A stretch of DNA of 33,587 nucleotides from Gemmatimonadaceae bacterium (GTDB taxonomy: Bacteria; Gemmatimonadota; Gemmatimonadetes; Gemmatimonadales; Gemmatimonadaceae), in NCBI GenBank assembly GCA_019745365.1, contig JAIETI010000093.1:1-33587 (forward strand). The letters run 5' to 3'. Below are positions 2-28,978 of this stretch, piece by piece. The notes beneath the pieces are model-generated. The model had not been told where the DNA came from. It searched no databases and saw nothing but the letters and a program-made list of their open reading frames with translations. Numbering within the stretch: the stretch's first letter is position 1; the number at the start of each line of letters is the position of its first letter. The position numbers and the translations under genes were made by a program.

Positions 2-442
2 TTCGCACAAGCGACCAGAGCGGACTCAGCCGGCAGCTGGCGGCTCCGAGCCGACGCCGTGGCACTCGTCGGTCCCGCGGACGTGCCGATGCAATGGCTG
101 GCCCGCGCGGGTGGCCCTGTCTCTGGGCCGGGGTATGACTTTCACGAGTTCGTAGGGCGATCCATGATCAGCACGCGAGCCGAGTTTCGTCGTCGGATCC
201 CCTTTCCAGTCATCCCGCTCGGTCGCTTCGGTCGCACCGGCGGGGAAGCGTCGCTCCTCCCCTTCGGCCATGCGGTGTGGGTCCAGGGAGCCCCGAGCGA
301 GGCGAACGGCGTCTTTCCGTCGGCCGGCCTAGGACTTGGGCTCTTCTCGGACCTCCTGCGGGTCGACATCGCGCGGGGGCTCCGCGGCGGGCGCTGGCGC
401 TTCGCGATCGACCTGACGACGGAGTTCTGGCCCATTCTTTAG
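2..442 (+). CDS. Outer-membrane beta-barrel protein, C-terminal fragment (surface-antigen/BamA-like)
   Basis: The reading frame is open from the window edge to a TAG stop, so the gene starts upstream and only about 146 C-terminal residues are visible. They alternate polar and hydrophobic residues in strand-like blocks. The last 45 residues contain a glycine-rich strand (SAGLGLGLFSDLLRVD) followed by GGRWRFAIDLTTEFWPIL. That pattern resembles the final strands of Omp85/surface-antigen or autotransporter-like barrels, in which a strand of the form GxGLxxxxDxLRVD precedes a short terminal strand. Membership of that superfamily is an inference from pattern only. No N-terminal domain (POTRA or patatin) is visible, so the function cannot be fixed. 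It ends 67 nt before the GspE-like gene on the same strand. Confidence 0.55.
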   Translation, partial: FAQATRADSAGSWRLRADAVALVGPADVPMQWLARAGGPVSGPGYDFHEFVGRSMISTRAEFRRRIPFPVIPLGRFGRTGGEASLLPFGHAVWVQGAPSEANGVFPSAGLGLGLFSDLLRVDIARGLRGGRWRFAIDLTTEFWPIL

Positions 443-509: not shown

Positions 510-2795
510 ATGGGCGCCTCGGCACGACCGGTACGGGACGAATGGATCTTGCCGACGTTGGAGCTCCTGCTCACGCCGGCGCAGTCGGCTGACCTGAAGG
601 CCAACGCCGAGGACTCCTACTGGGAGTCGGCGGTGCGGCGCGGCGTCATCTCCGACGAGAAGATCCTCGAAGCGCTCGCCCAGCGCTTCCGGATGAAGAT
701 CGCGAACCTCCAGGTCGTCTCGCAGCAGGCGCGGGAACTCGTCCCGGAGCAGCTGGCGCGCAAGTATCGCATCCTCCCGCTCGCGATCTCCGATTCGGTG
801 CTCGATATCGGCACCGCGGACCCCCACGACCTCGACTGCGAGCGCACGCTCGCGTTCGCGCTCGGGCGCACCATCCGCATGTCGCTCGCGGCGCCGCAGC
901 GCATCGTCGAGCGGATCGATGAGGTGTACCGCCCCGAGAACGTGATGGAGAAGATCCTCGAGGGCGTCTCGAACAACTATGACGTCGAAGCGATCGGCGA
1001 GACCATCGACGAGGCCGAGCTCGACCTCGGCGCGGAACGCGCGAGTGAGCGCCCCGTCATCCGCCTCGTTGATCACATCGTCGCCGAAGGGATCCAGTCG
1101 CGCGCGTCAGACATCCACTTGGAGCCCGAGGAAGCGGGCGTGGCGGTGCGCTATCGTATCGACGGCGTGCTCCGTCAGGTGATGGTGCTTCCGCGCGCGG
1201 CCGGCGTGCCGCTCGTGTCGCGCATCAAGATCATGGCGGCCCTCGATATCGCCGATCGCCTCCGCCCGCAGGACGGGCGTGCGCGCGTCGCGGTGAATGG
1301 CAGCCGCGTCGACCTGCGCGTCTCGACGCTCCCGGCGTCGAACGGCGAGAAGGTCGTCATCCGAATCCTCGACCAGCGCTCGACGGTGCTGTCGCTCGAC
1401 AATATCGGGTTCAATGGCGAGGAACTGGCGCGGATCCATGAGCTGTTGCAGGTGCGTGAGGGGATCATCCTCGTCACCGGCCCGACGGGATCGGGCAAAA
1501 CGACGACGCTCTACTCGATGTTGCGCTCGGTGCAGTCGCGCGGCGTGAACATCATCACCGTCGAAGACCCGGTCGAGTACCGTCTCGCGGGCGTGGTGCA
1601 GGTGCAGGTGAACGAGAAGGCGGGGCTGACCTTCCCCGCCGCGCTCCGCTCGATCCTGCGCCAAGACCCGGACGTCATCCTCCTCGGTGAGATCCGCGAC
1701 AAGGAGACCGCCGGCATCGCGACGCAGGCGTCGCTCACCGGCCACTTGGTGCTCTCCACCCTCCACACCATCGACGCGGCGAGCTCCATCACCCGTCTGA
1801 TGGACATCGGGATCGAGACGTACAAGATCGCGGCGGCTGTGAAGGGTGTGCTCGCGCAGCGCCTCCTACGCCGCATCTGCCATTCCTGTCGCGAGCTGCA
1901 GATCGGGCCGGTCTCCGACCGCCTGCGCCGCTATTTCCCAGAGGGGACATCGCTCTATCGCTCCGTCGGCTGTCCCGAGTGCTCGATGACCGGCTATCGC
2001 GGGCGACTCGCGATCACTGAGATCCTCCTCGCCAATCCGGAGGTCGAGCGACGGATCGCGGCGAGTGAGACGGCGGATCGCATCGCCGAGGCGGCGCGCG
2101 AGGGCGGGATGCGCACGCTGTGGGACTCGGGCGTGTATCACGTGAAGGCCGGGAACACCACGATCGACGAACTGCTGCGCGTGCTGGAGCCACCGTCGGA
2201 AGGCGGCGTCGGCGCGCGCCAGGTCAAACCCGCGGAGCCGACGCCCGAAGTCGTCGAAGGGAACGCGCGCGGGTCGCTCGCGGCGAGCGTCGATGCGCTC
2301 GTGCAGCAGCTCATCCCCAAGAACCAGGGCGTGCAGACGCTGCACGCGGTCCCGCCGTCGTTCAGTGGCGACGGGTTCCAACTCGTCGATGACTACGTCG
2401 ATGCCAAGGGGGCGGCGAAGAAGGTGCTGCTGGTCGAGGACGAAGACTCGTTGCGGCGCGTGATGCGCGATCTCTTGGAACGCGAAGGCTTCCAGGTCCT
2501 CGAGGCGGCTGACGGGATCAAGGCGCTCGACGAGGTCGACCGCGGAAATCCGGATATCGTCGTCCTCGATCTCAACCTTCCGGGGCTCGACGGCTACGGA
2601 GTGCTCAGCCACCTGCGCTCGCGGCCGGCGACGGCGGACCTCCCCGTCATCGTGCTCACCGCGAAGGGCGACGAGGACAGCGAGGTACGCGTCTTCGAGT
2701 ATGGCGCGTCGGACTACCTCACCAAGCCGTTCCGCCCCCGCGCGCTCTCCGCACGGCTGCACTCGCTCCTCGGTCGCCCCATCCGTCGCGACTGA
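510..2795 (+). CDS. GspE/PilB-family secretion ATPase fused to a response-regulator receiver domain
   Basis: A 761-residue protein. Residues about 35-150 resemble the MshEN/T2SSE N-terminal domain. The ATPase core follows, with Walker A GPTGSGKTT at 324-332, the Walker B/Asp-box region DPDVILLGEIRD near 386-397 and a His-box stretch (TGHLVLSTLHT). A zinc-type tetracysteine motif has CxxC at 457/460 and 488/491, as in GspE and PilB. A linker of about 100 residues leads to a complete CheY-like receiver domain (about 640-758), with acidic residues E643/D644, the predicted phospho-acceptor D687, T717 and K739. The family powers pilus extension or type II secretion from the cytoplasmic face of the inner membrane. 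No other T2SS or pilus gene is in the window. An AGGAG lies 13 nt before the ATG. The receiver fusion suggests control by a histidine kinase; that is inference. Confidence 0.93.
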   Translation: MGASARPVRDEWILPTLELLLTPAQSADLKANAEDSYWESAVRRGVISDEKILEALAQRFRMKIANLQVVSQQARELVPEQLARKYRILPLAISDSVLDIGTADPHDLDCERTLAFALGRTIRMSLAAPQRIVERIDEVYRPENVMEKILEGVSNNYDVEAIGETIDEAELDLGAERASERPVIRLVDHIVAEGIQSRASDIHLEPEEAGVAVRYRIDGVLRQVMVLPRAAGVPLVSRIKIMAALDIADRLRPQDGRARVAVNGSRVDLRVSTLPASNGEKVVIRILDQRSTVLSLDNIGFNGEELARIHELLQVREGIILVTGPTGSGKTTTLYSMLRSVQSRGVNIITVEDPVEYRLAGVVQVQVNEKAGLTFPAALRSILRQDPDVILLGEIRDKETAGIATQASLTGHLVLSTLHTIDAASSITRLMDIGIETYKIAAAVKGVLAQRLLRRICHSCRELQIGPVSDRLRRYFPEGTSLYRSVGCPECSMTGYRGRLAITEILLANPEVERRIAASETADRIAEAAREGGMRTLWDSGVYHVKAGNTTIDELLRVLEPPSEGGVGARQVKPAEPTPEVVEGNARGSLAASVDALVQQLIPKNQGVQTLHAVPPSFSGDGFQLVDDYVDAKGAAKKVLLVEDEDSLRRVMRDLLEREGFQVLEAADGIKALDEVDRGNPDIVVLDLNLPGLDGYGVLSHLRSRPATADLPVIVLTAKGDEDSEVRVFEYGASDYLTKPFRPRALSARLHSLLGRPIRRD

Positions 2796-2796
2796 C

Positions 2797-3267
2797 GTGA
2801 CCGACATCCGTGTCGGCGTGGTCGATGTCGTGATCACCCGCGGCGTCGGCGCCGCGCGCGAGGTCCTCGCACTGCAGCGCGGACCGAACGGACGGAATCC
2901 GGGGTCGTGGGAGATCGTCCACGGCAGCATCGAGGCCGACGAAGCGCCCGAGGCGGCCGCGCTGCGCGAAGTTGCCGAGGAGAGCGGGCTCATCCCGGCG
3001 CGACTCTACAGTCTCACGGTGCACCCGTTCTATCTGCCGCGCGCACGCACCGTGCAGCTCGCGGTCGTCTTCGCCGCCGTGATCGAGGGCGAGGCCGACG
3101 TGCGTGTGGGCCCCGAGCATGACGCCTTCGCCTGGTGGAGCATCGCCGAGGCCCGCGCGCAGCTCTCGTGGCCTCGCGAAGCCGAGTCGCTCACGCACCT
3201 CGAACGACTCCTCGGCGGCCCCGACGGGACCGCCGGCGTGCTCGAAGACGTGCTCCGCGTGCGCTGA
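2797..3267 (+). CDS. NUDIX hydrolase
   Basis: A 156-residue protein with a perfect Nudix box, G-x5-E-x7-RE-U-x-EE-x-G-U, at residues 43-65 (GSIEADE...REVAEESGL). Family members hydrolyse nucleoside diphosphates linked to another moiety, with the metal bound by the box glutamates. The overall shape, including a substrate loop around HPFYLPRARTVQ, resembles the small NudB/MutT-like group, but the substrate cannot be told from sequence. I place the start at the GTG at 2797, one base after the TGA of the GspE-like gene, which implies translational coupling. In-frame ATG codons upstream lie inside the receiver domain and would add a non-homologous N-terminus. The gene converges on the acyltransferase gene with a 3-nt gap and no terminator between them. 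Confidence 0.9.
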   Translation: MTDIRVGVVDVVITRGVGAAREVLALQRGPNGRNPGSWEIVHGSIEADEAPEAAALREVAEESGLIPARLYSLTVHPFYLPRARTVQLAVVFAAVIEGEADVRVGPEHDAFAWWSIAEARAQLSWPREAESLTHLERLLGGPDGTAGVLEDVLRVR

Positions 3268-12205: not shown

Positions 12206-12398
12206 AGCGTGACAGCTAGGGCACCAACCCGAGGTGATGCAGGTCACGAGCCGTCTTTCCGCGCCGCGCGCCCGTTCGCGAGGCGTCTCCGAATTGCAGG
12301 ACCCGTGGCATCCCCCCCAGGAGCCCACGGGGAGTTTCGAAGGACCGGCGCGCACCCCCCGTGCGTCCGGGAGACCGACCTTCGTGCCGGAGGGCATC
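12206..12398 (+). promoter_or_regulatory. Long 5' leader of susC with short hairpins
   Basis: No gene is supported here. The leader contains an inverted repeat CCCGTGG / CCACGGG (12302-12331) with a C-rich loop and a smaller CGCAC / GTGCG hairpin (12351-12365) before the SusC Shine-Dalgarno GGAGGG. An in-frame GTG-ATG at 12234 could extend SusC, but that would bury the signal peptide behind 55 residues. I see no known riboswitch pattern. Confidence 0.35.
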
Positions 12399-15300
12399 GT
12401 GAAGTCACTGGTTCGTCGCACTCTCGCGGCGTTGGGAGCCATCGCGCTCGCCATCGCCCCACCGCTCCACGCGCAAGCGCGCACCGCTACCATCGAGGGC
12501 TCCGTCAAGGACGCCAACTCGGGTCGCGCGATCGAAGCCGCTCAGGTATACCTCGACGGGACCACCTCCGGGGCGGTCACGAACAGCCAGGGCGCTTACC
12601 GGCTCGTGGTACCGCTGCCGAGTGCCAACCGGACCTTCACGGTCAAGGTGCGCTTCATCGGCTACAACCCGCAGAACAAGATCGTCACCGTCGTCGAAGG
12701 GCAGACGATCAAAGCGGACTTCGGCCTCACGCAGTCGGCGCTCCAGCTCAACCAGGTCGTCGTGACCGGGTCGGGGCAGGCGACGGAAGTGAAGCGGCTC
12801 GGCAACACGGTCGCCGTGGTGCAGCCGCCCAAGGACATGCCGCAGAACGATGTGTCGCAGCTCCTGCAGGGACGTGAACCCGGACTCGTGGGGCTCCCGA
12901 CCGGCGGCCTCTCCGGCGAGGGCGCGCGTATCCGCATCCGCGGCAACGCGTCGCTCACCCAGAGCAACGAGCCGATCGTCTTCGTCGACGGCGTCCGCAT
13001 CAACTCGGGCGGCGGCTTCAACGTCGGGACCGGCGGCGGTGGTCAGGCGTCGCGCCTCGACGACATCGATCCGAACTCGATCGAGCGTATGGAAGTGCTG
13101 AAGGGCGCCGCGGCCGCGACGCTCTACGGCACCGAAGCCTCGAACGGTGTGATCCAGATCTTCACCAAGAAGGGCTCGGTCAGCGCGCCGCGCTGGACGA
13201 TGTCGCTGCAGAACGACTTCTCGCAGTATCCGGATCGGGTCGCGCCGAACTCCTTCTACGCCAAGACGCAGACGCAGGCCGATGCGCTCTCGGCGCACTG
13301 GGGCTTCCCGATCACGCCGTTCAACGTGTACGAGATCCCGGTCTTCAAGAACAACCTGACCGAGACCGGCATCGGCACGACCGCCGCCGCGACGGTGCAG
13401 GGCGGTGGCCCCTCGGTCACCTACTTCGTCTCGGGCCGCTACCAGAACGAGAACGGCCCCTTCGGTGGCCGCTCCCTCGGCCCCGCCCAGGACGCGGTGA
13501 AGCGCGCGCAGACCAACCTCAATGTCCAGCTCGTCCCGACGTCGAACCTCCGCGTCGGCGTCCGCGGCTCGTACTTCAACACGCAGAACGAGACGCCGGA
13601 GAACAACAACAACATCTACGGCGTGAACTCGCTGGCCACCATGGCCCGCCCCGAGTTCGCCAACTGCAACGCCTCCGCGACGACCGGCAAGGGCACCTGC
13701 ACCGGCGCGGGCAATCCGTTCGGCAATCAGGCGTTCATGACCGTGCGTGAGTCGATGCAGCAGACGAACGTCTCGCAGGTCGGGCGCTACGTCGGCAACG
13801 TCGATCTCCAGTGGACGCCGACCCCCGGGCTCACCTACTCGGTGCTCGGCGGCTTCGACTTCACCTCGCAGCGTGACGTCGGCTTCTCGCCGTTCGGCTA
13901 CAATCTCGACCTCTTCACCACGCAGACCACGGCGGGCGCCCGCACCGCGTTCGATGCCCGCACGCGGGTGATCACGCTCGATTCCAAGCTCGCGTGGAAC
14001 AAGGACAAGCTCCCGATGAACCTCAGCTCGGCGTTCGTCGCTGGGTTGCAGGTCTTCAACAACCGCACCACCACGACGTCGGGGAGCTCGCAGGACTTCC
14101 CGGGCCCGGGGATCGCGGTGACGGGCGCCGGTGGCGCGCAGATCGTCGTCGGCGAGTCGTACCTCACGACGATCAACGGCGGCTACTTCGCGCAGGAGCA
14201 GATCGGGTGGCGCGACTATGTCTTCGCCACGATCGGCGGGCGCTATGACTTCAGCTCCGCCTTCGGCTCGGAAGCGCCGGGCGTCTTCTATCCGAAGACC
14301 TCGATCTCTTGGGTCCCGTCGGATATGCCGAGCTGGAAGCCGCGCTTCGGCATCTCGCAGCTCCGCCTCCGCGCCGCGATCGGTCAGTCCGGTCGTCAGC
14401 CGGGCGCGTTCGATAAGTTCACGACCTTCTCTCCGCTCGTCTCGGAGCTCGGCGCCGGTCTGGCCCCGAGCAACCTGGGTAACCAGGACCTCAAGCCGGA
14501 GATCTCGAACGAGATCGAGGGCGGCTTCGAACTCGGCTTCCTCGACAACCGCGTCGGTCTCGATGTGACGATGTGGAACCGCCGCGTGAAGGACGCGCTC
14601 GTCGCGCGCCAGTTCGCGCCGTCCGGCGGGTTCGTCAACTCGCAGCTGACCAACATCGGCCAGATCTTCGCCCGCGGCATGGAGATCGGGCTGAAGGGGA
14701 CGGCCAAGCGCTGGCAGTCGTTCGGCGGCGGGTCGCTCGACCTCTTCGCCAACGGCGCGTATCTCAAGCAGCAGCTGAACAGCCTCGGAGGCGCGCCGCC
14801 GCTCAAGGTGGGCTACGTCCGCTACCGCGGCTACCTCAAGGCCGGCTACCCGCTCGGCTCGCTCTTCTCCCCCCGCCTCGCCGCGCCCTGCCCGGGCGGC
14901 GGGACGACGCCGGCGAAGAACAAGGCCGGCACCGACATCGCGTGCTACGGGCCGGGGCAGTTCCCGATCTCGCTCAACGGCAACGGCCGTGCAGCGACGA
15001 AGGATGAGCTCCTCGCCTACCTCGCGGTGCCGCGCGACCTGAAGAACTCCGGCGTGCAGTCGGCGCTCAAGCCGCTCGTGTCGGACTACGACGGCACGGG
15101 GAACCTCACGGAGCAGTTCGTCGGCGACATCATCCCGGATTGGACCGGGTCGGTCGGCGGCACGCTCAACTGGGGGAAGAACATCCGCATCTACACGCTC
15201 TTCGAGTACAAGAGCGGCTTCCGCATCCAGAACCTCACCGACGGCTTCCGTCTCTCGCAGCACCCGTCGATCGGTTCGAACCGCAAGGCCTGGTCGGAGA

Positions 15301-15680
15301 TCGAGGCCACGCTGAACAACCCGGCGTCCACCGCCGAGCAGCGGCTGGCCGCGGTCGATCTCTACGCGCACAAGTACCGTCGTCTCCTCGAGCCGGGGCT
15401 CCATCAGGACCAGCCGGGTGACTTCGTCCGGTGGCGCGAGCTCTCGGTGACCTACCAGTTCAACGACAAGCTCGCGTCGAAGGTCGGGGCGCGCTCGCTC
15501 TCGCTGGTCGGCTCGGGGCGCAATCTCCTCCTCTTCACCCGCTACCCCGGGATGGATCCCGAGATCAACGCCATCGGCGTCGGCTTCGGCGGGATCGACG
15601 GGAACTTCCTCGACAGCACCGACGCCTTCGGTCTCCCGATCCAGCGTCGCTTCTCACTCACCGTCAACTACGGCTTCTAA
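12399..15680 (+). CDS. SusC/RagA-family TonB-linked outer membrane receptor
   Basis: A 1093-residue protein starting at GTG 12399, preceded by GGAGGG at good spacing. Residues 1-26 form a Sec signal peptide ending HAQ. Residues about 30-112 are a carboxypeptidase-regulatory-like domain (TIEGSVKDANSGRAIEAAQVYLDGT...GAYRLVV). The TonB-box-like VVVTG is at 120-124. The plug domain (about 135-245) has RIRIRGNASLTQSNEPIVFVDGV and DIDPNSIERMEVLKGAAAATLYGTEASNGVIQIFTKKG, which are diagnostic of the SusC family. A long barrel ends in an aromatic-rich strand (RRFSLTVNYGF). It should import oligomers (glycan or peptide) with the SusD lipoprotein encoded 13 nt downstream. The substrate is unknown, since no glycosidase or peptidase lies beside it. 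Confidence 0.95.
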   Translation: MKSLVRRTLAALGAIALAIAPPLHAQARTATIEGSVKDANSGRAIEAAQVYLDGTTSGAVTNSQGAYRLVVPLPSANRTFTVKVRFIGYNPQNKIVTVVEGQTIKADFGLTQSALQLNQVVVTGSGQATEVKRLGNTVAVVQPPKDMPQNDVSQLLQGREPGLVGLPTGGLSGEGARIRIRGNASLTQSNEPIVFVDGVRINSGGGFNVGTGGGGQASRLDDIDPNSIERMEVLKGAAAATLYGTEASNGVIQIFTKKGSVSAPRWTMSLQNDFSQYPDRVAPNSFYAKTQTQADALSAHWGFPITPFNVYEIPVFKNNLTETGIGTTAAATVQGGGPSVTYFVSGRYQNENGPFGGRSLGPAQDAVKRAQTNLNVQLVPTSNLRVGVRGSYFNTQNETPENNNNIYGVNSLATMARPEFANCNASATTGKGTCTGAGNPFGNQAFMTVRESMQQTNVSQVGRYVGNVDLQWTPTPGLTYSVLGGFDFTSQRDVGFSPFGYNLDLFTTQTTAGARTAFDARTRVITLDSKLAWNKDKLPMNLSSAFVAGLQVFNNRTTTTSGSSQDFPGPGIAVTGAGGAQIVVGESYLTTINGGYFAQEQIGWRDYVFATIGGRYDFSSAFGSEAPGVFYPKTSISWVPSDMPSWKPRFGISQLRLRAAIGQSGRQPGAFDKFTTFSPLVSELGAGLAPSNLGNQDLKPEISNEIEGGFELGFLDNRVGLDVTMWNRRVKDALVARQFAPSGGFVNSQLTNIGQIFARGMEIGLKGTAKRWQSFGGGSLDLFANGAYLKQQLNSLGGAPPLKVGYVRYRGYLKAGYPLGSLFSPRLAAPCPGGGTTPAKNKAGTDIACYGPGQFPISLNGNGRAATKDELLAYLAVPRDLKNSGVQSALKPLVSDYDGTGNLTEQFVGDIIPDWTGSVGGTLNWGKNIRIYTLFEYKSGFRIQNLTDGFRLSQHPSIGSNRKAWSEIEATLNNPASTAEQRLAAVDLYAHKYRRLLEPGLHQDQPGDFVRWRELSVTYQFNDKLASKVGARSLSLVGSGRNLLLFTRYPGMDPEINAIGVGFGGIDGNFLDSTDAFGLPIQRRFSLTVNYGF

Positions 15681-15693
15681 GGAGGGCGCCCAG

Positions 15694-17073
15694 ATGCTCC
15701 ATCACTTCCGCGGTACCCTTCGTCGCACCGCCACCATCGCCGCCACGCTCTCGAGCGTGGTGGTGATGGGTGGGTGCAACCTGTTCGACACGGACATCAA
15801 CAACCCGAACGCGGTCATCGACACCGCGCTCGACGACGCGGCGGGCGCGACCACGCTCGTCAACGGCCTCGGGGGCTCGCTCACCCGGACCTTCACGTCG
15901 GTCTACGGCCCGTACACGGCGGCGTCCGACGAGCTCACCTGGTCCGGCTCGCGCGAGTTCTGGAAGCTCCTCGACGATGGCGACATCGCCGACCCGGTGA
16001 ACGAGTACACCGACGGCGCCTATCCGCAGATGTCGCAGACGCGCTGGCTCGCGAACTTCACCCTCGAGAAGATGGAGGGGTTCGACAAGGCCAATACGCT
16101 CCGCAACCGGAAGGACCTTGCGCGGGCGTACATCTACGCGGCCATCACGTACATCACGATCGGCGAGATGTTCGACGACTTCGTCATCGGGTCGAATCGC
16201 ACCGAGGCGACGGCGAACGTCGGTCCGGCGAACATGGGGATCATGTTCGACTCCGCGATCGTGTACCTGAACAAGGGGCTCGTCGTCGCGCAGGCGACGT
16301 CGGATCAGGAGCTCCAGCGGCAGGTGCTGGGATTGCGGGCGCGCGCCAAGTTCTCGAAGGCGGCGTGGGCCAAGCTCCGTCCGGCACGCACGGCGCCGGC
16401 CGATCCGTACGTCAATGACGCCGGGGCCACGGCCGATGCGCAGGCCGCGCTGGCGCTGATGGCGACGACCTACCGTTATCGGCTCACCCCGACGGCGAAC
16501 AACCTCGCCGGGATCAACGTTGGCTTCGAGATGAACAATCGCGGTGAGCTGCGCGTCGGCACGGAGTACGGCAATGCGGACCCGGCGCGTCCGATCGTCC
16601 TGCTCGCTGGGCTCGCCGGGGTGAAACTCAACGATCCGATCAGCGGGGCGCCCGATCCGGTGCTCGCGCGCGCGATCGACGAGTGCTGCCGTCCGGCGGT
16701 CGGCAACAACGTCCCCTTCACGGTCACCTCGTGGCGCGAGATGCAGTTGATCGCGGCCGAGGCCTCGCTGGCGTCGGGGAACACCGCCGACTTCACCACG
16801 CGCATCAACGCGGTGCGCGCGCTCGACAACCTCCCGGCGTGGGCGGGCACCCCGTCGGCGCAGGCGATCCTGATCCACGAGCGTCGCGTGAACCTCTTCT
16901 TCCAGGGGCGGCGTCTGACGGATCTCTACCGCTTCGGGCAGAAGGATCCGCGCTGGCTCTCGACGGCGAGCACCTCGAAGAAGGCGTGCTTCCTCCCGAT
17001 CTCGTACATCGAACGGCAGGCGAATCCGGCCACGGGGCTCACGAGCACCTCGCGCGCGGACTACTGCCAGTAG
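15694..17073 (+). CDS. SusD/RagB-family nutrient-binding outer membrane lipoprotein
   Basis: A 459-residue lipoprotein with signal peptide and lipobox MGGC, the lipidated Cys being residue 28. Hallmarks are the early FDTDINNPNAVID segment, TPR-like helices in the middle (LARAYIYAAITYITIGEMFDD, LGLRARAKFSKAAWAKL) and the C-terminal SusD signature ILIHERRVNLFFQGRRLTDLYRFG. It sits on the cell surface as the lid of the SusC barrel and captures the substrate. At 459 residues it is shorter than many Bacteroidota SusD proteins. A strong GGAGG directly follows the susC stop and serves this start. The pair ends at a 39-bp palindrome. Confidence 0.93.
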   Translation: MLHHFRGTLRRTATIAATLSSVVVMGGCNLFDTDINNPNAVIDTALDDAAGATTLVNGLGGSLTRTFTSVYGPYTAASDELTWSGSREFWKLLDDGDIADPVNEYTDGAYPQMSQTRWLANFTLEKMEGFDKANTLRNRKDLARAYIYAAITYITIGEMFDDFVIGSNRTEATANVGPANMGIMFDSAIVYLNKGLVVAQATSDQELQRQVLGLRARAKFSKAAWAKLRPARTAPADPYVNDAGATADAQAALALMATTYRYRLTPTANNLAGINVGFEMNNRGELRVGTEYGNADPARPIVLLAGLAGVKLNDPISGAPDPVLARAIDECCRPAVGNNVPFTVTSWREMQLIAAEASLASGNTADFTTRINAVRALDNLPAWAGTPSAQAILIHERRVNLFFQGRRLTDLYRFGQKDPRWLSTASTSKKACFLPISYIERQANPATGLTSTSRADYCQ

Positions 17074-22486: not shown

Positions 22487-23101
22487 GTGCGTCTGATCCC
22501 CAAGGACGAAGGTTTCTTCCTCCTCTTCGACGGACTCGCCAGCAAGATCACGCTCTCGGCGTCGCTCCTGAACGACCTCTTCAACGACCCCACGCGGCTC
22601 GACCACTACGTCGGGCAGATCAAGGCGGTGGAGCGGGATGCGGACGACATCACCCATGAGGTGATGACGCGGATCGATCGCAGTTTCGTGACGCCGCTCG
22701 ATCGCGAGGACATCCACTCCTTGGCGACGAGTCTCGACACCGTCGTCGACCTGATGGACGGCACCGCACGGCGCGCCGCGATGTTCCATATCAACGAGTC
22801 GCGCGACCATGCGAAGGCGCTCACGAAGCTCCTCCAGCGGGGGGCGGAGGAGATCGCGAAGGCGGTGCACACGATCAAGGACTCGAGTGCGGTGGTGACG
22901 AACGCCCGGCAGATGAAGCTGATCGAGGAGGAGGGCGATGCGATCTACGCCAATGCGATCAGCAGTCTCTTCGCGGATTCCGCCGCCAATCCGCTCGAGG
23001 TCATGAAGTGGAAGGAGATCTACGACACGCTCGAGCACGCGCTCGATGAGCAGGAAGACGTGATGAACGTCCTCGAGAGCATCTCGATCAAGAACTCCTG
23101 A
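22487..23101 (+). CDS. DUF47/PhoU-like protein, putative PiT accessory regulator
   Basis: A 204-residue all-helical protein of the DUF47 (PhoU_div) family, recognised from MRLIPKDEGFFLLFDGLASKI, the helix around AVERDADDITHEVMTRIDRSFVTPLDREDIHSLATSLDTVVDLMDG and the C-terminal YDTLEHALDEQEDVMNVLESI. The acidic E/D-x3-D motifs are like the metal clusters of PhoU. Family members are commonly encoded next to PiT transporters and are thought to control them. Start GTG 22487 with GGAGA upstream. The PiT gene begins 2 nt after its stop, so the two are co-translated. Confidence 0.92.
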   Translation: MRLIPKDEGFFLLFDGLASKITLSASLLNDLFNDPTRLDHYVGQIKAVERDADDITHEVMTRIDRSFVTPLDREDIHSLATSLDTVVDLMDGTARRAAMFHINESRDHAKALTKLLQRGAEEIAKAVHTIKDSSAVVTNARQMKLIEEEGDAIYANAISSLFADSAANPLEVMKWKEIYDTLEHALDEQEDVMNVLESISIKNS

Positions 23102-23103
23102 CG

Positions 23104-24138
23104 GTGATCACCTTCGTCCTGGCGATCATCGCGGTCGCCTTCGTCTTCGACTTCATCAACGGCTTCCACGACAGCGCGAATTCGATCGCGACGATCGTGG
23201 GGACGCGGGTGCTCTCCCCCTTCGCGGCGGTCCTCTGGGCCGCGACCTTCAACTTCGCGGCGGCCTTCTTCGGGAGCACCGCGGTGGCGAAGGCGGTGAG
23301 CTCGGGCTTCATCGTGCAGGAGTACGTCGATCCGACGGTCATCGCCGCCGGACTCCTCGGGGCGATCATCTGGAACCTGATCACCTGGTGGTACGGGATC
23401 CCCTCGAGTTCGTCGCACGCGCTCATCGGCGGCTTCGCCGGTGCGGCCGTGGCCAAGGGCGGATTCGCGGCGCTCCTGTGGGGCTCGAAATGGATTCAGA
23501 CGCTCGCCGCGATCGCGCTGTCGCCGATGCTGGGGATGACGTTCGGGTTCCTCCTGATGGCGCTCGTGCTGAACCTGTTCCAGCGGGCGCGGCCGCGGCA
23601 GGTCGACCGGCTCTTCCGGCCGGGGCAGCTGCTCTCGTCGGCGATGCTGTCGTTCGCGCATGGATCCAACGATGCGCAGAAGACGATGGGGATCATCGTC
23701 GGACTCCTCGTGAGCGCTAAGGCGCACTTCGCGGGACAGACCGGGTGGATGTCGCATCTCTACCTCGAGAACGCCGACCGCGTCCCCTACTGGGTGGAGA
23801 TCGGCGCCTACAGCGCGATATCGCTCGGGACGCTCTTCGGCGGATGGCGGATCGTGCACACGATGGGGTCGCGCATCACCCGACTCCGCCCGGTGGGCGG
23901 CTTCGCCGCGGAGACGGGAGGCGCCCTCGTGATCATCGGCGCATCGCATTTCGGCATCCCGGTGTCGACGACGCACACGATCACCGGCTCGATCGTGGGC
24001 GTGGGCGCGACGAACCGCCTCTCGGCGGTGCGGTGGGGGCTGGCCGGGCGCATCGTCTGGGCGTGGATCGTGACGATCCCGGCGTCGGCGGCGATGGCGG
24101 CGATCGCCTTCCTGCTGCTCCGTCCGCTGACGAGCTAA
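23104..24138 (+). CDS. pit: Inorganic phosphate transporter, PiT family
   Basis: A 344-residue permease with about ten membrane segments. Both inverted Pho4 repeats are present: FDFINGFHDSANSIATIVGTRVL near the N-terminus, and AMLSFAHGSNDAQKTMGIIVGLL in the second half. The SSSHALIGGFAGA and STTHTITGSIVGVGA segments are the paired PiT signature loops. It imports Pi (probably as a metal-phosphate complex with H+ or Na+) across the cytoplasmic membrane with low affinity. The start is GTG 23104, directly after the DUF47 stop, and ppk starts 3 nt after its TAA. The three genes form a phosphate uptake and storage operon. Confidence 0.95.
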   Translation: MITFVLAIIAVAFVFDFINGFHDSANSIATIVGTRVLSPFAAVLWAATFNFAAAFFGSTAVAKAVSSGFIVQEYVDPTVIAAGLLGAIIWNLITWWYGIPSSSSHALIGGFAGAAVAKGGFAALLWGSKWIQTLAAIALSPMLGMTFGFLLMALVLNLFQRARPRQVDRLFRPGQLLSSAMLSFAHGSNDAQKTMGIIVGLLVSAKAHFAGQTGWMSHLYLENADRVPYWVEIGAYSAISLGTLFGGWRIVHTMGSRITRLRPVGGFAAETGGALVIIGASHFGIPVSTTHTITGSIVGVGATNRLSAVRWGLAGRIVWAWIVTIPASAAMAAIAFLLLRPLTS

Positions 24139-24141
24139 CCG

Positions 24142-26250
24142 ATGAGCGCGCTGGAGCGCCCCCGGTACCTGAACCGCGAGCTGAGCTGGCTCGCCTTCAA
24201 TGCCCGCGTGCTCCACGAGGCGAGCGATCCGCGGACGCCGCTCCTCGAGCGCTTGAAGTTCCTCGCCATCTTCGGCACGAACCTCGACGAGTTCTACATG
24301 GTCCGCGTCGCCGGGCTCCGGCGGCAGCTCGCAGCCGCGGTGACGCAGCCGAGTCAGGATGGGATGACGCCGGCGGAACAGCTGCAGGAGATCGGGGCGC
24401 GGGTGAAGGGGCTGCTCCGCGATGCGCGGACGGCTCTCGAAGGGGCGCTCGACGCGCTCGACGCGCATGGGGTGCGACTGGTCGGGATGGACGCGCTCTC
24501 CGCGAGCGAGCGCGAAGCCCTCGATGCGTACTTCGAGAGTCAGGTCTATCCGGTGCTGACGCCGCTCGCGGTGGATCCCGGACATCCGTTCCCGTACATC
24601 TCGAACCTCTCGCTCTCGCTCGCGGTGGACCTGCGCGATCCCGCCAAGGGGACCGAGCACTTCGCGCGCGTGAAGGTGCCCCGGTCACTGCCGCGCTGGG
24701 TGCCGATCGGCCGCGCGAACCACTTCGTCCCGCTCGAGCTCCTCATCGGCGCCCACCTCACGGCGCTCTTCCCTGGCATGCAGATCCTCGGGCACTGGGC
24801 GTTCCGGATCACGCGCTACAGCGATCTGGAGATCCCGCCCGATGAGGAGCCGGAGGACCTGCTAGCAACGATCGAGGAACAGGTCTTCCAGCGTCGCTTC
24901 GGCGAGGTGGTGCGGCTCGAGGTCGCGCCGGGGATGCCGCCCGCCCTCCGTGATCTCCTCCTCGAGGAGCTCCGCGAGGAGGAGGGGATGGGGGTCGCGC
25001 CCCTCGTCCCCGCGGACGTCCAGGAAGAGGGGCCCTTCCTCGAACTCGGAGACCTGCACGCGCTCGCCGGACTCGACCTGCCGGAGTTGCGCGATCCGCC
25101 CTTCGCGCCCGTCGTGCCGGCGGATTTCCGCGACACGGAGCGAAGCGTGTTCGACCTGATCAAGGAGCGCGATCTCCTCGTGCACCATCCGTTCGACTCG
25201 TTCAGCGCCTCGGTGGAGCACTTCCTCGAGAGCGCGGCGCGAGACGATGCGGTGCTCGCGATCAAGTTGACGCTCTACCGCACCTCCGGGGATACCGCGA
25301 TCGTGAAGGCGCTCGCCGAGGCAGCGCAGCGCGGCAAGCAGGTGGCGGTGCTCGTGGAGCTCCAGGCGCGGTTCGACGAGGCGAACAACATCGCATGGGC
25401 GCGGACGCTCGAGTCGTACGGGGTGCACGTTGCGTACGGGCTCCCCGGGCTCAAGACGCACACCAAGGTCGCGCTCGTCGTACGTCGCGAGGCGGACGGG
25501 ATCCGGCGCTACGTGCATGTCGGCACCGGGAACTACAACTCGAAGACCGCGCGCATCTACACCGACGTCGGGCTCTTCACCGCGAACGCGACCGTCGGCG
25601 CGGATGCGTCCGATCTCTTCAACTCGCTGACCGGGTTCAGCCGCCAGCGCCTCTATCGGCGGCTCCTCGTGGCTCCGGTCAACCTGCGCGACCGCGTGCT
25701 CGCGCTGATCGGCCGTGAGGCGGAGCACGCGCGCGATGGGCGCCCGGCGCGGATCATCGCGAAGATGAACAACCTCGCCGACCACGAGGTGATCGATGCG
25801 CTCTACGCCGCGTCTGAGGCGGGGGTGGAGATCGATCTCATCGTGCGCGGGATCTGCTGTCTCCGTCCGCAGATCGCGGGGCTGTCCGACCGGATCCGCG
25901 TCCGCTCGGTGATCGGACGCTTCCTCGAGCACTCCCGTATCTGGATGTTCGCGAACGCGGGGACGCCAGAGTACTTCCTCGGCTCAGCTGATTGGATGCC
26001 GCGCAACTTCGATCGGCGCGTCGAGGCGGTCGTGCACGTGGATGACCGCGCGTTGCACGTCCGCTTGCAGGCGCTGCTCGATCTCTACCTCAGCGACGAT
26101 CGTGGGGCATGGGAGCTCGACGCGAGCGGCGGCTACCATCAGGCCGCTCCGGGTATCGAACCGCGGAGCGCCCACGTCCTCCTGCAGCGGGAGTCGTGGG
26201 GGCGCTCACGTCCGAGCGGGCGTTCTGAGGTCGCGGCGCCCCTCGGCTAG
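24142..26250 (+). CDS. ppk1: Polyphosphate kinase 1
   Basis: A 702-residue PPK1 that polymerises the gamma-phosphate of ATP into polyphosphate. The N-terminus (YLNRELSWLAFNARVLHEA) and FGTNLDEFYMVRVAGL are diagnostic. The phospholipase-D-like C-terminal domains hold the phospho-acceptor H440 in LKTHTKVAL and H459 in YVHVGTGNYNSKTARIYTDVGLFT, 19 residues apart as in the E. coli enzyme. IVRGICCLRP and GSADWMPRNFDRRVE are also conserved. It is the last gene of DUF47-pit-ppk, so imported Pi can be stored as polyP. Its 3' end faces ppx with a 30-nt gap. Confidence 0.97.
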   Translation: MSALERPRYLNRELSWLAFNARVLHEASDPRTPLLERLKFLAIFGTNLDEFYMVRVAGLRRQLAAAVTQPSQDGMTPAEQLQEIGARVKGLLRDARTALEGALDALDAHGVRLVGMDALSASEREALDAYFESQVYPVLTPLAVDPGHPFPYISNLSLSLAVDLRDPAKGTEHFARVKVPRSLPRWVPIGRANHFVPLELLIGAHLTALFPGMQILGHWAFRITRYSDLEIPPDEEPEDLLATIEEQVFQRRFGEVVRLEVAPGMPPALRDLLLEELREEEGMGVAPLVPADVQEEGPFLELGDLHALAGLDLPELRDPPFAPVVPADFRDTERSVFDLIKERDLLVHHPFDSFSASVEHFLESAARDDAVLAIKLTLYRTSGDTAIVKALAEAAQRGKQVAVLVELQARFDEANNIAWARTLESYGVHVAYGLPGLKTHTKVALVVRREADGIRRYVHVGTGNYNSKTARIYTDVGLFTANATVGADASDLFNSLTGFSRQRLYRRLLVAPVNLRDRVLALIGREAEHARDGRPARIIAKMNNLADHEVIDALYAASEAGVEIDLIVRGICCLRPQIAGLSDRIRVRSVIGRFLEHSRIWMFANAGTPEYFLGSADWMPRNFDRRVEAVVHVDDRALHVRLQALLDLYLSDDRGAWELDASGGYHQAAPGIEPRSAHVLLQRESWGRSRPSGRSEVAAPLG

Positions 26251-26253
26251 CGC

Positions 26254-26272
26254 GCGCGGAGGTCGTCCGCGC
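26254..26272. terminator. Small hairpin between convergent ppk1 and ppx
   Basis: GCGCGGA / TCCGCGC, 7 bp with a 5-nt loop, sits in the 30-nt convergent gap. There is no U-tract, so a bidirectional terminator is likely but not certain. Confidence 0.4.
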
Positions 26273-26280
26273 CGCGCGAC

Positions 26281-27915
26281 TCAGTCGCCGTCCTGAGTCG
26301 CCGAATCGGGGGAGACCGCTCGGCCATCCGCTCCGACGATCTCGACTGGCACTCCCGCCACCTCCGCGAGGAGCCCCGCCTTCCGCGCCGCGCCCCAGAG
26401 TTCGAGGCGGAGCGGCACCGATTCCTTCACCGGCACTGGCGTGATCCGGATCGCGCGCGGCATCCAGCGCACCTTCACGCGGTCCACGGCGGCCACGTGG
26501 CCGCGGTCGAGCCCGTCCGCGACGCGCAGGATCGCCGACAGGATCGTGATCCGTTCGCGCGTGGCGCGGTCGAGCGCGCCGAACGCCTCGTGGCGCCTGC
26601 GATCCGGATTGCTCCCGCGGTGATAGCGCGCCACATGAGCGACGACCATCTGGTCGGCGGGGCTCATCCCGAGCAGCTCCGCGTGCTGGATCAGATGGAA
26701 GCTGTGCTTATGGTGCTGCTTGTAGTTGATGTGGTAGCCCACGTCGTGCAGGAGCGCGGCGTCGGCGAGCACCGGGCGGTCGTCCGGCTCCAACCCGAGG
26801 CGCGAGCCGAGGGCGTCGAAGAGCTGGAGCGAGAGCCGCTGCACCTGCGCGGCGTGGGGTGCTTCGTAGTGACAGCGCTCCGCGAACTCCCGCACCGAAC
26901 GCTCCCGCGCCTCCCCCGGATCAGCGATCTGCGGCATCACCCGCGCCGACTCGAGGAGGAGCCCTTCGCGGATCCCGTACCGCGAGACCTGCAGCGCGAC
27001 CGGCTCCACGCGTCCCATCACCTCAGCGGCCACCGCGAGCCCGGCGATGATGATGTCCGCACGCCCGTGGTTCAGCCCGGGGACGGCGAGCCGCTCCGCC
27101 GGCGTGAGCGCGACGAGCCACTCGAGGATGTGCTCTACCTCGGCGAGCGTGAGCGCGGTACCGTGGACCGATCGCGCGCCTTGCATGCCGGTGCGCGCGA
27201 GATGGATCCCCGCGAGGTTCGTGAAGGTCCCGCCAGAGCCGATCAGCTCGGCGCCGCGCCAGTCGCGCACCGGGAGCGCGTCGCGGATCGTGTCGCGCAC
27301 ATGCTTCCGCAGCTTCCGCACCCCCTTCACGGGAGGGCGGCCGATGAGGAAGCGTTCGGTGAGGCGGATCGCCCCGTAGGGAAGCGAGATCAACCGCTCG
27401 ACGAGCCCCTCCGCCGACATCGCCAGTTCGAGCGAGCCACCGCCGATGTCCATCACCACGGCGCGCCCGCGACCGAGCTCGAAGTGCGCGAGCGCGGAGC
27501 GGAAGGCGAGTCGCGCCTCCTCTTCTCCCACGAGCGTGCGGACCTTGAGCCCCGCTTCCCGCCGCACGCGTTGCAGGAACAAGCGCCCGTTGGCGGCGTC
27601 GCGCACCGCGCTCGTCGCGACCGCCTCGATCCGCTTCGCATCCAACTGCTTCGCGAGGGTGGCCATACGCGAGAGCGCCTCGATCGCCGCCTCGACGTTC
27701 GCCTCACCGAGTCGCCCCGTCTCGGAAAGCCCGCTCCCCAAGCGCGGCGCGGCCTTCATCTCGTCCACCACGCGGATCGCGCCGTTGGGCGAGACATCGG
27801 CGACGATCTGGCGGATCGAGTTCGACCCGATGTCGATCGCGGCGATCCGCTCAGCGTCCGGGCGCGGTTCCCCGCGGCCGGCGGTGGCGGGCTCGAGGCG
27901 GAGCGGGCTCGTCAC
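26281..27915 (-). CDS. ppx: Exopolyphosphatase (Ppx/GppA family) with C-terminal HD domain
   Basis: A 544-residue enzyme that removes terminal phosphates from polyphosphate. The actin-like fold shows IAAIDIGSNSIRQIVADV, TSAVRDAANGRLFL, the catalytic Glu region LVGEEEARLAFRSA and VVMDIGGGSLELAM. The second half contains an HD-type metal site (ALLHDVGYHINYKQHHKHSFHLIQHAELLG, then VAHVARYHRGSNP). I choose GTG 27915 as start: the pstS gene end supplies AAGGAG 7 nt upstream, and the homologous region begins about 20 residues in. A longer form to 28071 would read through pstS DNA in another frame. pppGpp hydrolysis (GppA activity) cannot be excluded. It is placed tail to tail with ppk1. Confidence 0.93.
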   Translation of the reverse strand: MTSPLRLEPATAGRGEPRPDAERIAAIDIGSNSIRQIVADVSPNGAIRVVDEMKAAPRLGSGLSETGRLGEANVEAAIEALSRMATLAKQLDAKRIEAVATSAVRDAANGRLFLQRVRREAGLKVRTLVGEEEARLAFRSALAHFELGRGRAVVMDIGGGSLELAMSAEGLVERLISLPYGAIRLTERFLIGRPPVKGVRKLRKHVRDTIRDALPVRDWRGAELIGSGGTFTNLAGIHLARTGMQGARSVHGTALTLAEVEHILEWLVALTPAERLAVPGLNHGRADIIIAGLAVAAEVMGRVEPVALQVSRYGIREGLLLESARVMPQIADPGEARERSVREFAERCHYEAPHAAQVQRLSLQLFDALGSRLGLEPDDRPVLADAALLHDVGYHINYKQHHKHSFHLIQHAELLGMSPADQMVVAHVARYHRGSNPDRRRHEAFGALDRATRERITILSAILRVADGLDRGHVAAVDRVKVRWMPRAIRITPVPVKESVPLRLELWGAARKAGLLAEVAGVPVEIVGADGRAVSPDSATQDGD

Positions 27916-27919
27916 AGGG

Positions 27920-28978
27920 TCACTCCTTCGGCGAGGTGGCGCAGGTGGTGGGGCGCACCGCGCGCAACGCCTGATCGACGCTGGCGGCGACGGGGCCCGG
28001 GAGCGGAGCGTACTCGAGCGCTGGCGCGCGCGTGTGGGGCGACTGCGTGATGGCCCAGCGGACGAACGCAATCAAGTTCGTGCCCCGCTCGGCATCGCGG
28101 TAGCCCGTGGGGATCAGGAGCCACGTCAACGAGCTGATGGGGTAGGCGCTCGGCGAGCGCACGTCGAGGAGGCTCCGCACCGTGTCGGCGCGGTCGAGGG
28201 TCAGCCGCTCGGCTCCCGCGGCGCTGATGCTCGCGACGCTCGGCGCCACGAAACTTCCGGCGGCGTTCCGGATCGCGGCGACGGCGATCCGGTTCTGCTC
28301 CGCGTACGAGAGCTCAAGGAAGCCGATCGCGCCGGGGAGGGAGCGGATCGCGGCGGCCACCCCCTCGTTCCCAGCGACGCGCGTCCCCACCGGCCAGTGC
28401 GGGAGCTCGAGCGCGGCGGCGCGTGCGATGCGCCACGCATTGCTCTGCCGGGCAAGAAAACCGTCGAAGACGGTCGCGGTCCCCGACCCGTCCGCGCGCG
28501 CGACGACCGCGATCGGGAGGGCCGGGAGGGGGCGACCGGGATTCAGCGCCCGTAGGCGCGGGTCATCCCATCGCGTGATCCGGCCGAGGAAGATCGCGGC
28601 CAGCGTCTCGCCGTCGAGCCGCAAGGCGCTATCGGGGAGCGCGTAGCCCACCGCGACCGCGCCGAGCACCGTGGGGACGCGCAGGACCGCACCGCAGCGC
28701 GCGGCGAAGGCCCGCAGGCGGGGATCGTCGCCGAGCCCGTCGGTCGCGGCGAAGTCGGCCTCCCCCGCCGCGAGGCGGCGGATCCCTTCGGCGGAGCCAA
28801 CGGAGAAGTAGTTGATCGAGCGTCCCCCCTGGGCGAGCCACCCTGAGAACCAGCGCGAGTACACCGGGTAGGGGAAGGTCGCGCCTGCGCCCACGAGGGG
28901 ATCCCGCGACGCGCGCGAGCAGCCCGCGAACAGCGCGAGCGTGAGTGCGGCCGCGCGCGCGCTAGAACTGATTCGCAT
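27920..28978 (-). CDS. PstS-like phosphate-binding lipoprotein
   Basis: A 352-residue substrate-binding protein with a lipobox ending in Cys20 (LFAGC). Phosphate-binding elements are GAGATFPYPVYSRW, the GSAEGIRRLAAGEADFAATD loop and the ADGSGTATVFDGFL loop, matching PstS. In the usual system PstS hands Pi to PstCAB; none of those genes is nearby. Its own gene overlaps the upstream lipoprotein gene by 17 nt and ends 4 nt before ppx. Here it may feed another transporter, act as a Pi sensor or partner the outer-membrane system beside it; these are inferences. Confidence 0.9.
   Translation of the reverse strand: MRISSSARAAALTLALFAGCSRASRDPLVGAGATFPYPVYSRWFSGWLAQGGRSINYFSVGSAEGIRRLAAGEADFAATDGLGDDPRLRAFAARCGAVLRVPTVLGAVAVGYALPDSALRLDGETLAAIFLGRITRWDDPRLRALNPGRPLPALPIAVVARADGSGTATVFDGFLARQSNAWRIARAAALELPHWPVGTRVAGNEGVAAAIRSLPGAIGFLELSYAEQNRIAVAAIRNAAGSFVAPSVASISAAGAERLTLDRADTVRSLLDVRSPSAYPISSLTWLLIPTGYRDAERGTNLIAFVRWAITQSPHTRAPALEYAPLPGPVAASVDQALRAVRPTTCATSPKE

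Follow-up and report, generated by a model that had tools for sequence, protein, structure and literature searches.

Pilus extension motors are controlled by c-di-GMP, by PilZ/FimX and by inhibitors. The use of two extension motors is described for Acinetobacter baylyi in the accessible part of PMC8213720. For the MshEN domain, a c-di-GMP motif with the consensus RLGxx(L/V/I)2xxG(L/V/I)2xxxxLxxxLxxQ, in two copies per domain, has been defined (Wang et al. 2016, PMC5013675), and the available text of that paper reports the association of MshEN with receivers as a class, names REC in a list of associated domains, and terms Bd2402 a MshEN-containing response regulator. The control of PilB is discussed in PMC11656802 and PMC10333796, whose accessible sections contain no mention of an ATPase-receiver fusion, and the open-licence literature, taken by title and the start of the abstract, yielded no description of a PilB/GspE-type ATPase joined to a receiver. 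Such a fusion is encoded in the stretch of DNA analyzed here, referred to as the window, which is 33,587 nucleotides long and comprises the entire contig C14 of a 2.83-Mb, 193-contig genome that is 90.6% complete.

Architecture of the ATPase-receiver protein

The gene starts with ATG near the left end of the contig, where its upstream neighbor is truncated by the contig start, and encodes a single protein of 761 amino acids (Table 1). An initial annotation, made from the sequence alone, had described one polypeptide uniting a GspE/PilB ATPase with a receiver, and this is borne out by Pfam, where MshEN (residues 70-143, 52.3 bits, cut-off 23.1), T2SSE (residues 178-557, 437 bits, cut-off 24.9) and Response_reg (residues 639-750, 105 bits, cut-off 30.2) all exceed their cut-offs. 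The Walker A motif, the tetracysteine (cysteine pairs beginning at 457 and 488) and D687, T717 and K739 lie at the positions that had been given for them. On the strength of the domain score together with the Walker A motif, the tetracysteine and Glu394, which we take to be the Walker B (catalytic) glutamate, the protein is assigned to the PilB/GspE assembly ATPases of the T2SSE superfamily.

Table 1. Features of the ATPase-receiver gene and its immediate neighbors, in window coordinates; 60/60 refers to the 60 receiver-bearing family A sequences described in the text.
Feature	Position	Strand	Remark
CDS, PilB/GspE-type ATPase with C-terminal receiver	510..2795	+	
N1/MshEN-like domain, residues about 35-150	612..959	+	c-di-GMP motif I non-consensus (SYW for RLG)
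T2SSE motor domain, residues 178-557	1041..2180	+	nearest solved folds PilB/PilF/GspE
Walker A GPTGSGKT, residues 324-331	1479..1502	+	K330 in 60/60
Glu394 in GEIRD	1689..1691	+	conserved 60/60
Tetracysteine (zinc) motif C457, C460, C488, C491	1878..1982	+	each 60/60
Tether, residues 560-636	2187..2417	+	variable and disordered
F623-x-L625, short conserved motif inside the tether	2376..2390	+	
Receiver domain, residues 637-756	2418..2777	+	
Asp687, predicted phospho-acceptor	2568..2570	+	60/60
3' end of C4, Omp85/DUF5686-like outer-membrane protein, C-terminal barrel part	2..442	+	C4 profile
Nudix hydrolase gene, GTG start	2797..3267	+	1 base past ATPase stop

The key residues of the receiver are the acid pair D644/E645, the phospho-acceptor D687, T717 and K739. 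They are all intact, as had been claimed, and the Asp pocket is not degenerate in the AlphaFold2 model, in which the receiver adopts the canonical (beta-alpha)5 fold with pLDDT values of 92-98 in nearly all blocks. With the acid pair, the Asp, the Thr/Ser, the Lys and the fold all in place, the receiver appears competent for phosphorylation. The tether that connects it to the motor is modeled as disordered (pLDDT <50 at residues 568-633), and since the pTM of the model is 0.50, its placement of the domains relative to each other is uninformative.

The MshEN region of the initial annotation stands as a domain, with its first c-di-GMP motif off consensus. Motif I of the window protein reads SYWESAVRRGVISDEKILEALAQR, in which the positions of the Arg, the third Gly and the last Gln are altered, so that, judged on motif I, the window protein does not have the two motifs of a c-di-GMP-binding MshEN domain. 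At the RLG site a Trp takes the place of the Gly in all 60 receiver-bearing sequences and the Arg is kept in one of them (1/60); R[LV]G is kept in 6/7 PilBs, the remaining one (from G011) having SLH. A perfect motif may not be needed for binding, according to the available text of Wang et al. (PMC5013675). Binding of c-di-GMP by this domain is unlikely, as far as can be judged from its residues. From the Trp-for-Gly replacement at motif I together with the presence of a receiver we infer that the motor has lost the usual c-di-GMP sensing, and it is probably the receiver, on its flexible C-terminal tether, that has taken over from c-di-GMP binding as the control input.

Spread and phylogenetic position of the fusion

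Searches covered 41 genomes (the genome of the window included) as well as samples of the class and of the phylum. Of the 295 genomes in the class sample, 112 matched with an E value of 1e-140 or lower, and by manual count the match extended at least to residue 742 in 78/295; six or more of these (G168, G271, G252, G197, G213, G265) represent a more distant family or depend on a second copy. Across the phylum, 230 of 395 sampled genomes matched at E 1e-115, a count that includes receiver-less relatives. The open reading frames from the fetched loci were sorted into orthologues of the window gene (family A), ATPases more distant from it (family B), PilB and GspE. A receiver-based scan of named genomes retained at least 80 loci; the ATPase is present in the first 57 of these (L145-L201, several clipped by contig ends), with receiver and motor (>300 bits) in one open reading frame in 54/57, the exceptions being L159, L194 and L201. 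The remaining 23 loci, of which 22 carry the titles of other taxa and one is the end fragment L215, yielded no such ATPase in the fetched stretch. One locus labeled Myxococcota (L170, MO_167.B37) carries a typical family A fusion and may be mis-binned.

Conservation among the 60 family A fusions is high in both functional parts. K330, E394, R396, D397 and the four cysteines of the motor are kept in 60/60; D644, E645, D687 and K739 of the receiver are invariant, and the position of T717 is occupied by 59 Thr and 1 Ser. Mean column conservation in the family reaches 81% in the motor and 82% in the receiver but only 24% in the tether, whose length ranges from 40 to 136 aa. Within the tether, L625 is invariant in the 60 rows and also in a separate 51-row alignment, and F623 is conserved at 82%; the F-x-L motif is a possible docking segment. 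W38 is invariant among 51 aligned fusions. An assembly artefact or a lone fusion is rejected, as the fusion recurs across the sampled genomes with its residues kept in 60/60, and so is a pseudo-receiver in family A, where the key residues are conserved in the 60 rows. The fusion is real, old, kept intact and spread over many Gemmatimonadota, of which few have been cultured.

A tree of 110 motor domains was built by a quick method, for which the program warned of long branches; rows with a motor score <210 or a match <270 aa were omitted, as were five loci already represented. Families A and B form one 93-row clade (SH-aLRT 98) apart from PilB (7 rows) and from GspE (10 rows in two groups). We therefore regard the receiver-fused ATPases and their receiver-less relatives, on their position in this tree, as a third family of assembly ATPases. 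The 60 receiver-bearing family A rows are one group (support 84), whose sister consists of nine receiver-less rows, seven with a fused Nudix and two with neither; three further receiver-less family A rows fall outside the sister group. A single receiver fusion followed by later losses is the simplest history, several of the forks having support <90. A Nudix hydrolase fused in the place of the receiver is seen in the ATPase open reading frames of L030, L032, L033, L035, L036, L038 and L124, and Pfam finds MshEN, T2SSE and NUDIX in L055, a longer stretch of the L036 locus. Family B is a second, more distant set of ATPases, most of them with receivers (L085, L087, L090, L096-L102 and others), and sometimes occurs in the same genome as family A; L085 has an extra GAF domain and L087 is a tandem pair. 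At each key receiver site one to three of its 19 rows deviate, and two family B ATPases (the first open reading frame of L087, and L088) have only weak, partial receivers.

In its own genome, the window ATPase is a third paralogue, distinct from PilB and GspE. It scores 516.9 bits with the PilB equivalog model TIGR02538 (cut-off 675.65) and is neither in a pil locus nor in the PilB clade, and it scores 544.5 bits with the GspE equivalog model TIGR02533 (cut-off 630.25) and lies outside any gsp locus. Nor is it a TfpB, as it scores 458 bits with model NF053534, whose cut-off is 850.

Platform genes and the pattern of pilus loss

The initial annotation had further proposed that the protein drives the assembly of a secretion system or pilus under a two-component signal. 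The intact receiver, the intact motor and the conserved fusion on which this was based all hold; the proposed drive does not follow from the locus, as the window ATPase lies outside the pil and gsp loci. Four genomes (G029, G285, G011, G004) each have a single T2SSF protein, a single secretin and a pil locus that contains PilB and PilT, the orthologue of G004 being the Nudix-fused form. The receiver-fused ATPase of G029, G285 and G011 is therefore without a platform of its own. A T2SSF protein was found in 42/42 tested ATPase-bearing genomes (12 + 30), among which G004, G006 and G016 have the ATPase without receiver, and also in 8/8 tested ATPase-less genomes, so its presence alone does not discriminate. 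Our tentative reading of the protein is that of an alternative extension motor that acts on PilC under the control of phosphorylation, with the receiver gating it via D687. Among the readings considered, it fits best with the conservation of the motor, the missing platform, the candidates for PilB replacement and the drift after pilus loss.

The candidates for PilB replacement are G335 and G019, both of which have the ATPase, with 1 unusual change in 211 near-invariant columns (see below) in that of G019. In G335, the usual flanking gene is next to PilT and PilC, and about 660 bp remain at the place of pilB. The genome of G019 is 100% complete and has PilC and PilM-N-O-P-Q. The 18 kb around pilC contain neither pilB nor pilT, and the 26 of 60 first-look candidates that were scored included no PilB-type match, so that a PilB elsewhere in this genome is conceivable. 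Both genomes also encode a GspE-like ATPase, together with a GspF-like and a secretin-like gene, and this ATPase could be their pilus motor instead. G144, which bears the same genus label, has pilB-pilT-pilC.

The converse pattern, an ATPase outlasting the pilus, is found in G257, G327 and G035. Among the matches listed in a T2SSE search of 30 ATPase-bearing genomes, these three have no other PilB-type match, and they have no secretin match and no PilM above the cut-off (weak PilM matches are seen in G257 and G327). In G327 and G257 the pilM-N-O-P-Q block is gone, with the matches of its flanking genes 57 and 172 bp apart; pilB-pilT are also absent, and the stretches contain no Ns, so these absences look like real deletions. 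The ATPase open reading frame is retained in all three genomes and looks intact in G327, where PilC is full-length as well. A prepilin peptidase occurs in 10/10 genomes tested, G327, G257 and G035 among them. These observations are what one would expect if the ATPase-receiver drives a process independent of the type IV pilus, perhaps with a retained PilC-like platform, and if its association with the pilus is incidental, an explanation that we consider rather unlikely. Against it stand the state of PilC, truncated in two of the three pilus-less genomes, G257 being one, and the state of the ATPase itself. In G035, about 20 residues from the start of PilB (E 7e-4) are followed within one open reading frame (L249:8780-9679) by PilC from its residue 128 onward, an apparent deletion scar.

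Drift of the ATPase was scored in 88 family A sequences over 211 near-invariant columns (at most two rows deviating), the pilus-less genomes among them being few. Unusual changes are raised in all three of these (G327 5, G257 4, G035 4) relative to a median of 0, with four or more in 6/88 sequences; the chance figure for this is 0.00018, which ignores relatedness. The other high scorers are G002 (8), L199 (5) and G093 (4), of which G093 has a PilB, and the pilus-bearing G090 and G029 show 3 unusual changes each. The ATPases of G035 and G257 have Leu-to-Pro changes at near-invariant sites, and each continues in another frame, for an N-terminal part in G035 and for the last residues in G257, suggesting decay or sequencing errors. 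We still favor coupling to the pilus, for two reasons: G335 and G019 have no pilB at its usual place but retain other pilus genes, and in the genomes that have lost the pilus the ATPase drifts. At least five genomes have PilB without this ATPase. With pili that do without the ATPase, and an ATPase that outlasts the pilus, the link between the two is not proven.

We regard as improbable that the protein is instead a GspE variant under two-component control, serving a type II-like secretion system. The scores with the two equivalog models (544.5 bits for GspE, slightly above 516.9 for PilB) point in this direction, though both are below cut-off, as does the tree rooted on PilB, which places 8/10 GspE rows with the 93-row clade (support 82). 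The position of the ATPase outside a gsp locus argues against it, and so do G029, G285 and G011, whose single T2SSF is located in the PilB-PilT locus and which have only one secretin.

Neighboring genes, mechanism and comparison with known motors

No histidine kinase is found by Pfam among the main open reading frames of the window, in agreement with the initial annotation, which had noted no adjacent kinase, and a query with the family kinase matched only the receiver of the window protein itself. By manual count, a hybrid histidine kinase lies near the ATPase cluster in 5/25 loci of 13-20 kb (one of these 25, L143, being a family B locus) and in 23/57 named loci. A GAF-PAS hybrid histidine kinase that carries a receiver itself and is convergent with the cluster occurs at L045:7189-9222 and also in L186, L188 and L200; such a kinase is a candidate for the partner in lineages of the order other than that of the window. 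That the receiver is a module for localization or oligomerization only, independent of phosphorylation, or else a phosphate sink, would agree with a window that holds no kinase and with the long, disordered tether. It is hard to reconcile with the hybrid kinases of the 23 named loci and with the retention of D644, E645, D687 and K739 in 60/60 and of T717 in 59/60 fusions, and we consider it improbable as well.

The ATPase sits in a stable chromosomal block with the order FHA-GAF-cyclase and trpE, C4, ATPase, usually Nudix, and engB-clpX-clpP-tig; Pfam agrees on tig, clpX and clpP and scores engB as a GTPase. There is no platform or secretin gene beside the window ATPase. The truncated upstream neighbor is recognized by the C4 profile in hmmsearch (125.8 bits, E 1.4e-37), and the N-terminal part of C4 was located at the end of contig C173. 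C4 (e.g. L145:2968-5010) has an Omp85-fold barrel and an N-terminal beta-rich domain, is weakly related to DUF5686, and is conserved across the order; in a fold comparison with the model of a relative, its barrel (model residues 306-679) resembles BamA/TamA (Z about 21). The Nudix box is intact in 112/114 open reading frames, a count in which overlapping loci count the same gene again, but the score with the closest NCBIfam model, that of dihydroneopterin triphosphate diphosphatase, does not reach its cut-off; a role of the Nudix as a signal-degrading partner was set aside and we make no claim as to its function. Elsewhere in the window, TonB-dependent receptor and SusD-like genes adjoin each other (12234-17073), and a phosphate cluster (22487-28978) comprises DUF47/PhoU-like, PHO4 transporter, polyphosphate kinase, Ppx/GppA phosphatase and substrate-binding protein genes.

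Upstream C4 on the same strand is found in 49/57 named loci, in 47 at a distance of about 36-162 bp. Six of the eight loci without it have the start of the ATPase open reading frame within 313 bases of the end of the fetched sequence; at the other two, L182 and L189, C4 is missing. C4 is also strongly present in 15/16 ATPase-less genomes and weakly in G253 (a 17th genome, G255, was excluded from this set as its ATPase sits at a contig end). Where the ATPase is absent, C4 is followed by Nudix in G003, G017, G196 and G260, stands with none of the sought neighbors in six genomes (G022, G112, G160, G024, G202, G153), is without Nudix in G101, and has the Nudix 8 kb away in G021. Neither C4 nor Nudix is therefore a dedicated partner, and a dedicated inside-outside machine made of the Omp85-like C4, the ATPase and the Nudix, strong by synteny through the upstream C4 and the Nudix that is adjacent or fused in many loci, is very improbable and largely rejected by the occurrence of C4, and of C4 with Nudix, in ATPase-less genomes.

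For the alternative extension motor that we tentatively favor, the following mechanism can be outlined. The ATPase, presumably a hexamer, would probably dock onto PilC, the platform of the type IV pilus, and may be the sole extension motor of a few genomes. A kinase encoded elsewhere would phosphorylate D687, which would shift the contacts of the receiver with the hexamer, with the F-x-L segment or with neighboring receivers, and the changed contacts would gate the activity of the ATPase or its engagement. A conserved receiver built into the motor itself would connect two-component signaling directly to a mechanical device, and the distribution of PilB losses provides a natural experiment on whether one assembly ATPase can take over from another.

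Compared with the MshEN proteins associated with receivers (PMC5013675), the window protein shows the same association; a full ATPase with a C-terminal receiver is not named in the available text of that paper. With GspE/EpsE (PDB: 1p9r, 4ksr, 4pht) it shares the motor and the tetracysteine, with 46% identity over about 380 columns to 1p9r in the fold comparison, but it differs in having a receiver tail, no gsp locus and a place in a separate clade. Like PilB (PDB: 5tsg, 5tsh, 5zfr; Thermus PilF, 5oiu), it has an MshEN-type N-domain, the motor fold, the Walker motifs and the tetracysteine; unlike PilB, it has a C-terminal receiver and an off-consensus c-di-GMP motif I, lies outside the pil locus and falls in a clade separate from the PilBs of the phylum. 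TfpB, the second extension motor of Acinetobacter (NF053534), is not known to have a receiver. It provides, in the accessible part of its description, a precedent for two motors on one pilus (PMC8213720).
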